The translations under genes and the position numbers were made by a program. A DNA stretch of 64,000 bases from an uncultured Bacteroidales bacterium (GTDB lineage Bacteria > Bacteroidota > Bacteroidia > Bacteroidales > P3). Numbering within the stretch: the first letter of the stretch is position 1; every line of letters begins with the position of its first letter. The stretch is taken from the NCBI GenBank assembly GCA_900315935.1, contig ONBB01000009.1, positions 1 through 64,000 on the forward strand, given 5' to 3'. Positions 10,785 through 20,501 of this stretch are shown piece after piece. The notes under the pieces were generated by a model that was not told where the DNA came from, did no database searches, and saw only the letters and a list, made by a program, of their open reading frames with translations.

Positions 10785-11137
10785 AAAAGCTATTGTTTCC
10801 ATTGTGCCTGTTGGCACTTCTCTTTGTGTCGTGCAAAGAAGATCCGACCATCGTGGGCAAATGGGAGGTAACAGAGAGTACCGAGATGAGTACCGATCAA
10901 TTTACCATCGTGTACGAGTTTTTTGAAAACAAGGACATGAATTGCTACATGGGAGATTCGCTCGTGGACGAAGACATGGCGTGGGCCATGCGTGGCGACA
11001 CCTTGCTCATGTACTATAAATACCCCGATGAGTACAGCGGCATGCCCGGAGTGATGCTGGTCGAGAAGTTGACCGGGGAGGAGATGCAGTGGTATGCCTT
11101 GATACCGGGCGTTCGAGTCTGGCTAAAGCGTATCTAG
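10781..11137 (+). CDS. Lipocalin-like lipoprotein
   Basis: A 118-residue protein with lipobox LLFVSC (Cys about 19) and a mature part beginning KEDPTIVGKWEVTEST. IVGKWEV followed by alternating strands is typical of small lipocalin-like Bacteroidota lipoproteins. It starts inside the stop of the VanZ fusion gene (ATGA) and is the last gene of the operon. Its stop shares the palindromic CTAG with the stop of convergent rlmN. It may be a substrate or surface partner of the upstream genes; no direct evidence. Confidence 0.75.
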   Translation: MKKLLFPLCLLALLFVSCKEDPTIVGKWEVTESTEMSTDQFTIVYEFFENKDMNCYMGDSLVDEDMAWAMRGDTLLMYYKYPDEYSGMPGVMLVEKLTGEEMQWYALIPGVRVWLKRI

Positions 11138-12231
11138 GCGTTCTTCCCCGCCAGCAGGCCACAGGCCGCGTCGATATCCTGCCCGCGCGAGGCGCGAAGG
11201 GTGCAGGTTACGCCGTGGCGGTTCAGGTAGTTCTGGAAGGCCGCTATGGTCGACGGCATCGAGGTCTTGTACGGTGCCTCGTCCGATTCGTGGAAACGTA
11301 TCAGGTTCACCCTGCATTCCAGCCCCTGCAGCGCCTCGGCCAGCTTGGCGGCGTGCGCCAGGTCGTCGTTTTCGCCGCGGAACATGGTGTACTCGAACGA
11401 GAGGCGCCGCTGCCCGCTCCAGTCATACTGCCGTAGCAGCGCCAGCACCTGGTTCAGCGGGAAGGCTTTCTGCACCGGCATCATAGCCAGGCGCTCCTGC
11501 GGCACGGGGTTGTGGAGGCTCACGGCGAGGTGGCACTGGCACTCGTCGAGGAAGCGCTTCATGCCCGGCAAGATGCCCACAGTGCTGACGGTGATACGTT
11601 TGGGGCTCCATCCGAGCCCCCAGTCGGAGGTGAGCACGGCGCAGGCATCAAGCACGGCGTCGAGGTTGTCCATCGGCTCGCCCATGCCCATGAAGACCAC
11701 GTTGGTGAGGCTCTCGAACTCGGGGATGGAGAACAGCTGGTTCAGTATGTCGCCCGCCGAGAGGTTGCCGTGGAAACCCTGGCGGCCGGTTACGCAGAAG
11801 CGGCAGCCCATCTTGCAGCCCACCTGGCAGGAGACGCAGAGGGTGGCACGGTCGTCGTCGGGGATATAGACGGCCTCGATGCCGGCTGTAGGGACGTGGC
11901 GTGCCACGTCCGCAGTGGACGGCGCATCTTTGCTTGCGGACGTGGCACGCCACGTCCCTTCAGACGGCACCATGAAGAGGTATTTTTTTGTTCCGTCGCG
12001 CGAGACCTGGCAGTTGACAGGCGTATGGCGCCCGATGCAGGCCACCTCGTTCAGCCGTGCCCGCTGGGCGAGCGAGAGGTTGGTCATGGCGTCGATTGTG
12101 TCCACGCGCTTCTTGTACAGCCAGTCGCACATCTGCTTGGCCGTGAACTTCGGGAAACCCTCGGAGGCGCACAGTCCTTGCAGCTGCACAAGCGTTATTC
12201 CCAACAAGTTAGCTTTATTCTGCGTATTCAT
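11134..12231 (-). CDS. rlmN: 23S rRNA/tRNA adenine C2-methyltransferase RlmN
   Basis: A 365-residue radical SAM enzyme that methylates A2503 of 23S rRNA and A37 of some tRNAs. The radical SAM cluster is C139-x3-C143-x2-C146 (CKMGCRFC). VVFMGMGEPMDN and SLHNP follow as in RlmN, and RASRGQDIDAACGLLAG closes the protein with the C-terminal Cys used in catalysis. Residues about 91-116 (EGTWRATSAS...VPTAG) have no counterpart in the family and are encoded by a 72-bp double-palindromic element in frame, placed between the N-terminal accessory domain strand KKYLFMVPS and AVYIPDDDRATLC. The enzyme may tolerate it as a surface loop. Confidence 0.93.
   Translation of the reverse strand: MNTQNKANLLGITLVQLQGLCASEGFPKFTAKQMCDWLYKKRVDTIDAMTNLSLAQRARLNEVACIGRHTPVNCQVSRDGTKKYLFMVPSEGTWRATSASKDAPSTADVARHVPTAGIEAVYIPDDDRATLCVSCQVGCKMGCRFCVTGRQGFHGNLSAGDILNQLFSIPEFESLTNVVFMGMGEPMDNLDAVLDACAVLTSDWGLGWSPKRITVSTVGILPGMKRFLDECQCHLAVSLHNPVPQERLAMMPVQKAFPLNQVLALLRQYDWSGQRRLSFEYTMFRGENDDLAHAAKLAEALQGLECRVNLIRFHESDEAPYKTSMPSTIAAFQNYLNRHGVTCTLRASRGQDIDAACGLLAGKNA
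11889..11960. repeat. Double-palindromic element inside rlmN
   Basis: A 72-base element: a 26-base arm (TAGGGACGTGGCGTGCCACG...) and its inverted copy at 11935-11960 with one mismatch, separated by 20 bases. Each arm itself contains the palindrome GGACGTGGC-GCCACGTCC. Length is a multiple of three and the rlmN frame stays open. A related element lies at 20418-20487. Confidence 0.9.
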
Positions 12232-19457: not shown

Positions 19458-20501
19458 TTAGTTTACATTTTTGGAAATCTTCAGCAGCAGGGGCAGGTGG
19501 TCGCTGAGGCCGCCTTCGTAGCGGGGCCCCTGGTTGGTGCGGAGGGGTCGGACGCCGGGGCGGCGCTCTTCGGGGGTGAGCAGGTGGCCGAAGCGTATCA
19601 GCTTGAGTTTGCGCACATTCCAACTGTCGTCGGAGAGGAAAAAGACGGCGTCGATGTAGCGCCACTCGCCCTGGAACTTGTGGCTGCCCCAGTCGTCGGG
19701 CAGGCGGTAGTCGAGGTTGCGGATGCCGTCGGGGCTGACGGTATCGCCACGGAAGCCCATGCCGTGGGCGATGGCGGGCTCGTCGGCGGTGGAGTTCATG
19801 TCGCCCATGGCGATGACGGCGGCCTGGGGGTAGCGCTTGTGCAGCCGCAGCATCTGGCTGCGAAGCTTCTGGGCGATGCGCAGGCGGTGCCGGTCGGCCT
19901 CTTCCCCACCGCGCTTGGAGGGCCAGTGGTTGAGGAAGAGCACCACCGTGTCGCCCTCGGGCGTGGTGCCCTCCACCTGCAGTATGTCGCGCGTGTAGAA
20001 GCCTGTGGTGGAGTCGGATACACGTATCGGCTTGCTGAAAAAGACGCGGAAACGGTCGCGGCGGTAGAGCAGCGCGACGTCGATGCCGCGGCGGTCGGGC
20101 GAGTCGTAGTGCACGTAGCGGTAGCCGAACTGGCGCAGGGGCGTGGCGTTGCAGAGTTCCTTGAGCACCCACGCGTTCTCCACCTCGGCCAGCCCCACCA
20201 CGTCGGGCAACTCCATCTGCAGCAGGGTTTTGTAGAGCCCTTGGATTTTGTCGTTCAGCTTGCGGCGGGTCCAATGGTAGTCGCCGCGGGGCGTGAAGTC
20301 GTCGTCGGCCGTGTGGGGGTCGTCGCGTGTGTCGAAGAGGTTCTCCACGTTCCACCAGGCGGCGGTGAAAATGGACGGAGATTGTGATTGGACAGACAAA
20401 GGCATAAGCATCAGCAGTAGGGACATGGCGTGCCATGTCCGCCGGCATCCGCAGAGGCGCTTGCGGACACGGCGCGCCGTGTCCCTACCAAGGTAATTCA
20501 T
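19458..20501 (-). CDS. Endonuclease/exonuclease/phosphatase family protein
   Basis: A 347-residue protein with EEP-fold blocks WWNVENLFDTRDD (metal Asn/Glu region), VGLAEVENAWVL (catalytic Glu), IDVALLYRR, LNHWPSKRGG, MGDMNSTADEPA and the final GLSDHLPLLL (Asp-His). Such secreted proteins cleave nucleic acids or phosphoesters. ATG 20501 overlaps the upstream stop (ATGA), so it is the likely start; residues about 5-28 come from a palindromic element that precedes the hydrophobic signal segment MSLLLMLMPLSVQSQ. Alternatively ATG 20426, inside the element, gives a normal signal peptide. Confidence 0.88.
   Translation of the reverse strand: MNYLGRDTARRVRKRLCGCRRTWHAMSLLLMLMPLSVQSQSPSIFTAAWWNVENLFDTRDDPHTADDDFTPRGDYHWTRRKLNDKIQGLYKTLLQMELPDVVGLAEVENAWVLKELCNATPLRQFGYRYVHYDSPDRRGIDVALLYRRDRFRVFFSKPIRVSDSTTGFYTRDILQVEGTTPEGDTVVLFLNHWPSKRGGEEADRHRLRIAQKLRSQMLRLHKRYPQAAVIAMGDMNSTADEPAIAHGMGFRGDTVSPDGIRNLDYRLPDDWGSHKFQGEWRYIDAVFFLSDDSWNVRKLKLIRFGHLLTPEERRPGVRPLRTNQGPRYEGGLSDHLPLLLKISKNVN
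20418..20487. repeat. Double-palindromic element at the EEP gene start
   Basis: Left arm TAGGGACATGGCGTGCCATG... (20418-20442) and right arm GCGGACACGGCGCGCCGTGT... (20463-20487) are inverted copies with a few changes, 20 bases apart, as in rlmN. Here the element supplies the first residues of the EEP protein and also an in-frame ATG. Confidence 0.88.

Follow-up and report, generated by a model that had tools for sequence, protein, structure and literature searches.

The window analysed here, a stretch of 64,000 nucleotides from an uncultured Bacteroidales bacterium, contains an rlmN gene whose 365-residue reading frame stays open across a short palindromic element (Table 1). The element supplies residues 91-115 of RlmN (EGTWRATSASKDAPSTADVARHVPT) and introduces no frame break. 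On either side of it the protein is a recognisable member of its family, with flanks that score 340.8 bits against TIGR00048 (cut-off 290). A first-pass annotation had singled out a segment foreign to RlmN between RlmN-like flanks, and this is borne out by the alignment of E. coli RlmN, which covers only residues 5-88 and 117-362 of the query and skips the insert between them.

The same annotation described an in-frame double palindrome of 72 bp at 11889..11960. The in-frame double palindrome stands, and its extent is revised to the natural unit of 74 bp at 11888-11961. Both reading of the sequence and a repeat search agree with the earlier description of two 26-nt inverted copies that differ by one mismatch and are each palindromic; they lie at 11889-11914 and 11935-11960, each holds a 20-bp palindrome, and the inverted repeat as a whole reaches 35-nt arms with 94% identity in the repeat search. 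When GGACGTGGCNNGCCACGTCC is sought with up to three mismatches, the window yields 4 matches against 0.08 expected, and none of 100 shuffles reaches 4.

Table 1. Positions of the palindromic elements, their parts and the genes that carry them. Coordinates refer to the window unless a contig is named; G000 is the window's genome.
Feature	Position	Strand	Remarks
rlmN host gene	11134..12231	-	365 aa; reading frame open across the element
GTAG-REP head-to-head pair (REPIN-like)	11888..11961	.	74 bp; in frame; 25 codons together with 1 flanking nt
CT immediately 5' of GTAG	11886..11887	+	candidate cleavage dinucleotide
Left REP GTAG tag	11888..11891	+	
Left 20-bp palindrome	11892..11911	+	9-bp stem, 2-nt loop
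Spacer	11912..11937	.	26 nt
Right 20-bp palindrome	11938..11957	-	
Degenerate right tag	11958..11961	-	minus-strand GAAG in place of GTAG (plus strand: CTTC for CTAC)
CT immediately 5' of right tag	11962..11963	-	plus strand: AG
Second element copy in the window	20417..20488	.	72 bp; outside any recognisable ORF
REP-type Y1 transposase in frame inside TrmH/SpoU methyltransferase	G000:C18:11193-12521 (L251:1501-2829)		443 aa; SpoU and Y1 by Pfam

The corresponding loop of related RlmN proteins was measured as the stretch between the motifs GTKKYLF and IEAVYIP. A search of 59 genomes of the genus matched 57 and gave loop lengths for 56 (the masked L058 was dropped), and a second search of 30 loci added 17 further genomes, making 73 loops altogether with the window's included. 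Most of these (68/73) span 3-19 residues. The five loops of at least 20 residues are those of the window (31), L019 (35), L020 (30), L056 (94) and L137 (21). The GTAG pair is found in the rlmN of the window's genome only and in 0 of the 72 other genus genomes measured, a result in favour of the invading element that the first-pass annotation inferred. The long loops of L019, L020, L056 and L137 hold other sequences, which look repeat-like by eye.

Conservation of the segment in distant RlmN proteins, which would have counted against the first-pass inference, was not seen. Among 11 examined of 120 database RlmN proteins listed, an insert with identical peptide occurs only in three close ones, P0001 (99% identity), P0002 (88%) and P0003 (85%). 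P0001 is a protein cluster with 13 members from 9 contigs, to which the window's own protein probably belongs; only two residues separate its representative from the window protein. The presence of the same insert in this representative, and in P0002 and P0003, counts against an error of a single assembly. At the next RlmN hairpin (after VYIP), P0002, P0003, P0047 and P0093 have a further insert in frame, of IPLPSPERRGDGGEA type.

From these sequences, we read the RlmN hairpin as a permissive site. An AlphaFold2 model built from a 40-row alignment (mean pLDDT 88.9) has the fold of E. coli RlmN (3rfa, TM 0.84), and its pLDDT falls below 50 at residues 92-100 and 110-112, between the strands at 82-88 and 116-125. 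The model places the insert in a hairpin loop of low confidence, and the protein is predicted to tolerate it as a disordered loop at its surface.

Copies in the genome and in related species

In G000 a pattern search recovers 34 repeats of this family, spread over 17 places. These comprise 31 exact matches, one with a single mismatch and two with two mismatches that partner exact ones; one stemless two-mismatch row and all three-mismatch rows are left out. The latter are uncounted because reversed-pattern controls also match at that level: across the whole genome these controls give 0 at up to two mismatches, and 11 and 12 with a looser pattern at up to three. Eight of the copies in G000 are compact head-to-head dimers by a mechanical listing. 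The arm recurs in the genome, where several copies occupy unrelated ORFs and share a codon phase, as the protein-invading repeat proposed by the first-pass annotation would do.

The 17 places divide into six in frame within recognisable genes, seven in DUF6266 paralogues and four elsewhere. By Pfam or NCBIfam, the six in-frame hosts are rlmN, a gene for an HI0933-like flavoprotein, a GltD/DHODB-like fusion, ribD, nqrA and htpG, the last of which carries a single repeat. Alignments show that the element is missing in 15/15 relatives for the GltD-like fusion, 14/14 for nqrA and 16/16 for ribD, and that the htpG repeat is missing in 4/4 relatives looked at (12 found). At the HI0933-like site the element is missing in 14/16 relatives; it is shared by one related genome, G001, and another, G115, has a single repeat there.

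Other kinds of insert were noticed at some of these sites. The HI0933-like gene of L199 (G100) holds a different, in-frame, GTAG-tagged perfect palindrome (GTAG followed by AGACGTATCATGATACGTCT) where the REP pair would be, and the loops of ribD (L161, L162, L165) and nqrA (L204, L206, L207, L210) in related species contain inserts that are repeat-like by eye. Judging from sequence, it is as if a few loops, those of rlmN, ribD and nqrA, were shared landing sites for different inserts.

The DUF6266 places (L004, L005, L006, L007, L014, L077, L079), assigned by Pfam for L077 and by common sequence for the other six, carry longer arrays in which units of ~27 bp appear by eye between the repeats. 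Their copies use the other open frame (CRDAAC), and several lie close to contig ends. A second copy in the window lies outside any recognisable ORF (Table 1), one copy in G000 sits between convergent genes, where the tag supplies their stop codons, one is at the 5' end of a gene for what, by reading, looks like a GH92 enzyme, and one is at a contig end.

Beyond G000, exact matches to the repeat pattern come from 32 of the 120 genus genomes surveyed, and the pattern occurs in 48 of 198 genomes sampled across the order, G000 being counted in both and the controls giving 0, with a survey pattern that is loose enough to merge several repeat families. In two related genomes, G001 and G113, in-frame pairs occur in genes for HydF, a GH92 enzyme, Sua5/YrdC, and transglutaminase-like, PNGase F-like and GH2-type proteins, as well as in two ORFs without a Pfam match (L427, L430); the PNGase F-like pair is common to both genomes.

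Compact pairs, defined as head-to-head pairs of 50-100 bp, were listed mechanically in the loci fetched from G000, G001 and G113. This gives 22, with some of the repeat places of G001 and G113 covered and two pairs of orthologues among them. By reading, 16 of the 22 lie in frame inside ORFs, one of them in DUF6266. In all 15 of the in-ORF pairs outside DUF6266 (13 independent), the left arm enters in the same codon phase. The left arm has a TAG stop in one phase, is open and reads as the Cys-rich CRDAAC in a second (as in DUF6266) and reads VGT in the third. Given that one phase stops and two are open, the chance that 13 of 13 would share one phase is 1 in 8192. The reading is VGT in 14 pairs and EGT in rlmN, the difference arising because the rlmN tag is mutated. 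Among single repeats, those in htpG, L433 and L438 also read VGT, the copy in an aminotransferase gene (L435) reads GHGTPCPY, and the one in L410 ends its ORF.

Net length modulo 3 was considered as a signature of a fixed change to the target and was dropped, since in-ORF pairs range from 58 to 88 bp and show all three remainders. A codon-usage classifier gave the label 'different' to ribD and L430 and the label 'stop' to three DUF6266 loci, and scored some low-scoring stretches as in frame; it was trained in part on G000 host genes and is circular there, and we relied on alignments and readings instead.

One copy could be compared between two species. Over 72 nt, the copy in the HI0933-like gene shows 4 nonsynonymous and 0 synonymous changes between G000 and G001, and the next 600 nt of the gene show 3.5 and 15.5, respectively. 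On this comparison, which involves small numbers, the insert peptide looks unconstrained. The 600 nt upstream (dN 0.16, dS 0.24) were set aside as a probable frame slip through indels.

Stems, ends and the origin of the element

Covariation was assessed in 18 distinct units from G000 and its relatives. Stem cells are paired in 96.3% of cases, with 16 double-changed cells and a covariation score of 0.345, each of which was matched by 0 of 500 shuffles; slid controls give 0 or 1 double-changed cell. Much of this signal is carried by the three of the nine stem pairs that the search pattern leaves free. The number of pairs with a double change (4) and the number of further pair types (8) are not above shuffles, 160 and 384 of 500 of which reach these values.

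Sixteen of 44 ends, belonging to 15 of the 22 elements, have the dinucleotide CT abutting the tag on its 5' side, against 2.5 ends expected from the CT frequency of the window (P about 1e-9), where the 44 ends are those of the mechanical list with its two orthologous pairs included. TnpA-REP enzymes cleave REP substrates at CT (PMC8266576). By analogy, we infer that the same CT-cutting chemistry would act on the rlmN-type element. Mobility is likewise suggested because the element is dispersed and relatives have sites that lack it; no strain-level insertion or excision was seen.

We consider the element very probably to be a non-autonomous, REPIN-like mobile element, inserted by a single-strand transposase of the TnpA-REP (RAYT) type into a loop predicted to lie on the surface and to tolerate it. 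At the level of sequence, this reading has behind it the architecture of the unit, its dispersal to 17 places, its residence in frame in unrelated genes, its absence from most relatives and its covarying stems. In the mechanism that we propose, an HUH/Y1 enzyme would recognise the GTAG-tagged hairpins on single-stranded DNA, cut at the CT beside the tag and join the element to a new site without duplicating the target. Insertions that break the frame or enter the folded core would be purged, so that the survivors would be those that begin at a codon boundary (GTA GGG ACG, giving VGT, or EGT in rlmN) within a hairpin loop. The insert peptide itself would have no function, and the element would be kept because the host gene is needed.

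Other origins are less probable in varying degree. Homologous recombination with a neighbouring species could have brought the copy into rlmN by gene conversion rather than transposition. This is suspected, along with recent transfer, given that P0002 and P0003, at 12-15% divergence from the window protein, have an identical 25-residue insert. However, these two were compared as protein only, and recombination would account for the transfer of one copy and not for dispersal to unrelated genes; we regard it as improbable, although the best of the alternatives. A regulatory role that preserves the hairpin in rlmN mRNA or DNA, through pausing, attenuation or protein binding, seems decidedly unlikely. 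The predicted RNA fold of the element is very stable (-70.7 kcal/mol, z = -10.1, with 0 of 200 shuffles as stable) and the stems covary, but a transposase substrate would likewise show stem covariation, and the same element resides in unrelated hosts and is missing from all 72 further rlmN genes that were measured.

That the element is an ordinary MITE belonging to a DDE insertion sequence, a reading already disfavoured, is less likely still. The element is short, has inverted ends and lacks a gene of its own, as such a MITE would, but none of the 19 places examined (19/19) has the target site duplication by which DDE-type MITEs are defined, at a length above 2 bp, and the GTAG tag and the CT at the ends point to HUH/Y1 chemistry instead. 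Chance growth of the RlmN loop into an accidental palindrome, suggested by the variability of that loop and by its other, repeat-like inserts, is refuted by the occurrence of the same tagged palindromes at 17 places with controls at 0 for up to two mismatches, and we give it almost no credence.

Comparison with known palindromic repeats

Rickettsia palindromic elements, reportedly described by Ogata and colleagues in 2000, are said to be palindromic selfish DNA that lies in frame within protein genes. The rlmN element resembles them in that a palindromic repeat occupies unrelated protein genes without breaking their frame, and the first interpretation of this locus drew that analogy. The interpretation of an in-frame, protein-invading repeat in Bacteroidales is supported, with the refinement that by its GTAG tag and REP-pair layout the element is a GTAG-REP pair and not a Rickettsia-type element. 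Rickettsia elements are also treated in PMC6649704 and PMC3733652, the second of which assigns RPE-4 and RPE-6 of R. conorii to the CGTC superfamily (Di Nocera et al. 2013), in contrast to the GTAG tag of the rlmN element.

A close match is with the GTAG repeats of that survey (PMC3733652). Like them, the present family has GTAG on one end of a short stem-loop with a 2-nt loop, its 9-bp stem falls within the range of 6-13 bp and shows complementary variants among copies, and its members are multi-copy, often head-to-head dimers and in some cases within ORFs. In both, moreover, the TAG of the tag can provide neighbouring genes with stop codons, here at the place between convergent genes. The tagged repeats surveyed are mostly between genes, although some head-to-head dimers inside ORFs code for 20-30 residues, whereas the compact pairs described here are mainly (16/22) inside ORFs. 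As taxa with GTAG repeats that survey names Proteobacteria, Cyanobacteria, Chloroflexi and the PVC superphylum, and not Bacteroidetes.

REPINs, as described in Pseudomonas, are mobilised by RAYTs, to which they are tied, and occupy extragenic space (Bertels and Rainey 2011, PMC3116915). The rlmN element is similar in that two inverted REPs with a spacer form a dispersed unit that folds as a hairpin, and differs in that it is mainly intragenic and that no cognate RAYT was found. In tnpA-REP subclass 2.4, which is abundant in Cyanobacteria and Bacteroidetes, REPs lie in frame inside the transposase gene (Quentin et al. 2018, PMC6006769); the element shares with these the in-frame residence of REPs in a protein gene, but its hosts are genes other than that of the transposase. 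That work excluded a small number of unexpectedly long proteins as fusions or annotation errors. With these comparisons in mind, we file the element as a GTAG-REP dimer family that is new to the phylum list of Di Nocera et al. 2013 and that would work in the manner of a REPIN, apart from its mainly intragenic placement. Our literature search, in sources available in part, found no description of REP pairs inside Bacteroidota genes or of a RAYT nested in a host gene.

Transposases and their host genes

No intact Y1 gene flanked by the rlmN-type repeat was found at the four Y1 matches of G000, a draft genome, nor was the repeat found beside Y1 genes at 30 Y1 loci of the genus. In 12 repeat-bearing draft genomes, 8 of which have any Y1 match, none of 21 matches is an intact Y1 gene flanked by this repeat. 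The nearest association is in G001, where a Y1 fragment of 70 aa lies ~700 bp from a repeat pair. One 94% complete draft genome (G062) has 62 exact pattern hits on both strands and no Y1_Tnp match. The genus also has Y1 genes with GTAG palindromes of other kinds on their flanks. The missing partner may reflect loss of the gene, gaps in the drafts or the action of a different Y1 protein in trans. A family of longer Y1 proteins (L229 on contig C29 of G000, L243, L245, L247, L248) was also observed, with an internal, in-frame, species-variable repeat stretch that is Gly-rich, or Gln-rich in L248.

One of the Y1 matches in G000 is a complete REP-type transposase, bordered by REP peptides, that is nested in frame inside a TrmH/SpoU methyltransferase (Table 1). 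Such nesting occurs in 3 of 120 genus genomes (G000, G046 and G047; loci L251, L252 and L253). An AlphaFold2 model of the protein (28 rows) is modest overall (pLDDT 68.5, pTM 0.45), but its two parts each match a solved structure, the REP transposase 4er8 and TrmH 1v2x. Among the three copies, dN/dS is 0.05-0.07 for the transposase part and 0.08-0.27 for the SpoU parts, with some dS values near saturation. In the nested transposase of G000, the stretch from the REP peptide up to the first conserved strands contains no ATG, and a GTG start is possible.

Sixteen aligned SpoU sequences lack the transposase. At the site of nesting, L260 and L263 (from G062 and G009) have a peptide of the TQASRLH type, possibly a solo or deleted form, L274 has a remnant-like peptide, L272 has another insert and the rest are short. 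A protein database holds 27 clusters with SpoU and Y1 domains that cover 96-100% of the query at 59-98% identity. The transposase is nested in all five of those examined for this feature (P0121, P0122, P0131, P0139, P0147). Some database cases, P0153 and P0221, are C-terminal fusions that are not nested.

Y1 domains are associated with other hosts as well. In four species they lie in frame inside a WYL regulator, by Pfam in G060/L255 and by reading in G027/L256, G021/L259 and G105/L262. They also occur in frame in MmeI-like proteins of G070/L283 (Pfam, with Y1 at 22.4 bits, just below the cut-off) and G052/L261 (by reading), and as a C-terminal extension of HAD proteins in G083/L257 (Pfam) and G034/L258 (by reading). 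The REP peptides of the nested transposases are different ones (TQASRLH, TGSQPV), and the rlmN-type family is absent from all of their loci.

We judge it evenly balanced whether REP/RAYT DNA in this Bacteroidales lineage normally resides in loops of housekeeping proteins, both as REP pairs and as the full SpoU-nested transposase, the latter with no ATG near its beginning and under strong purifying selection. If it does, an indispensable host gene would give the element shelter and drive translation of the nested transposase, which would amount to an intein-like life without splicing. Palindromic repeats of the REP kind are usually counted as intergenic, and in the three genomes examined here the compact pairs are mostly in genes and, outside one gene family, all share a codon phase. 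Tolerance, choice of frame and choice of loop can be measured on about twenty natural insertions that have element-free relatives. The loops of RlmN, RibD, NqrA and the HI0933-like protein, which by eye take other repeats too, would mark natural permissive sites for protein engineering, and the nested transposase would open an old question, the domestication of RAYTs, to direct test.
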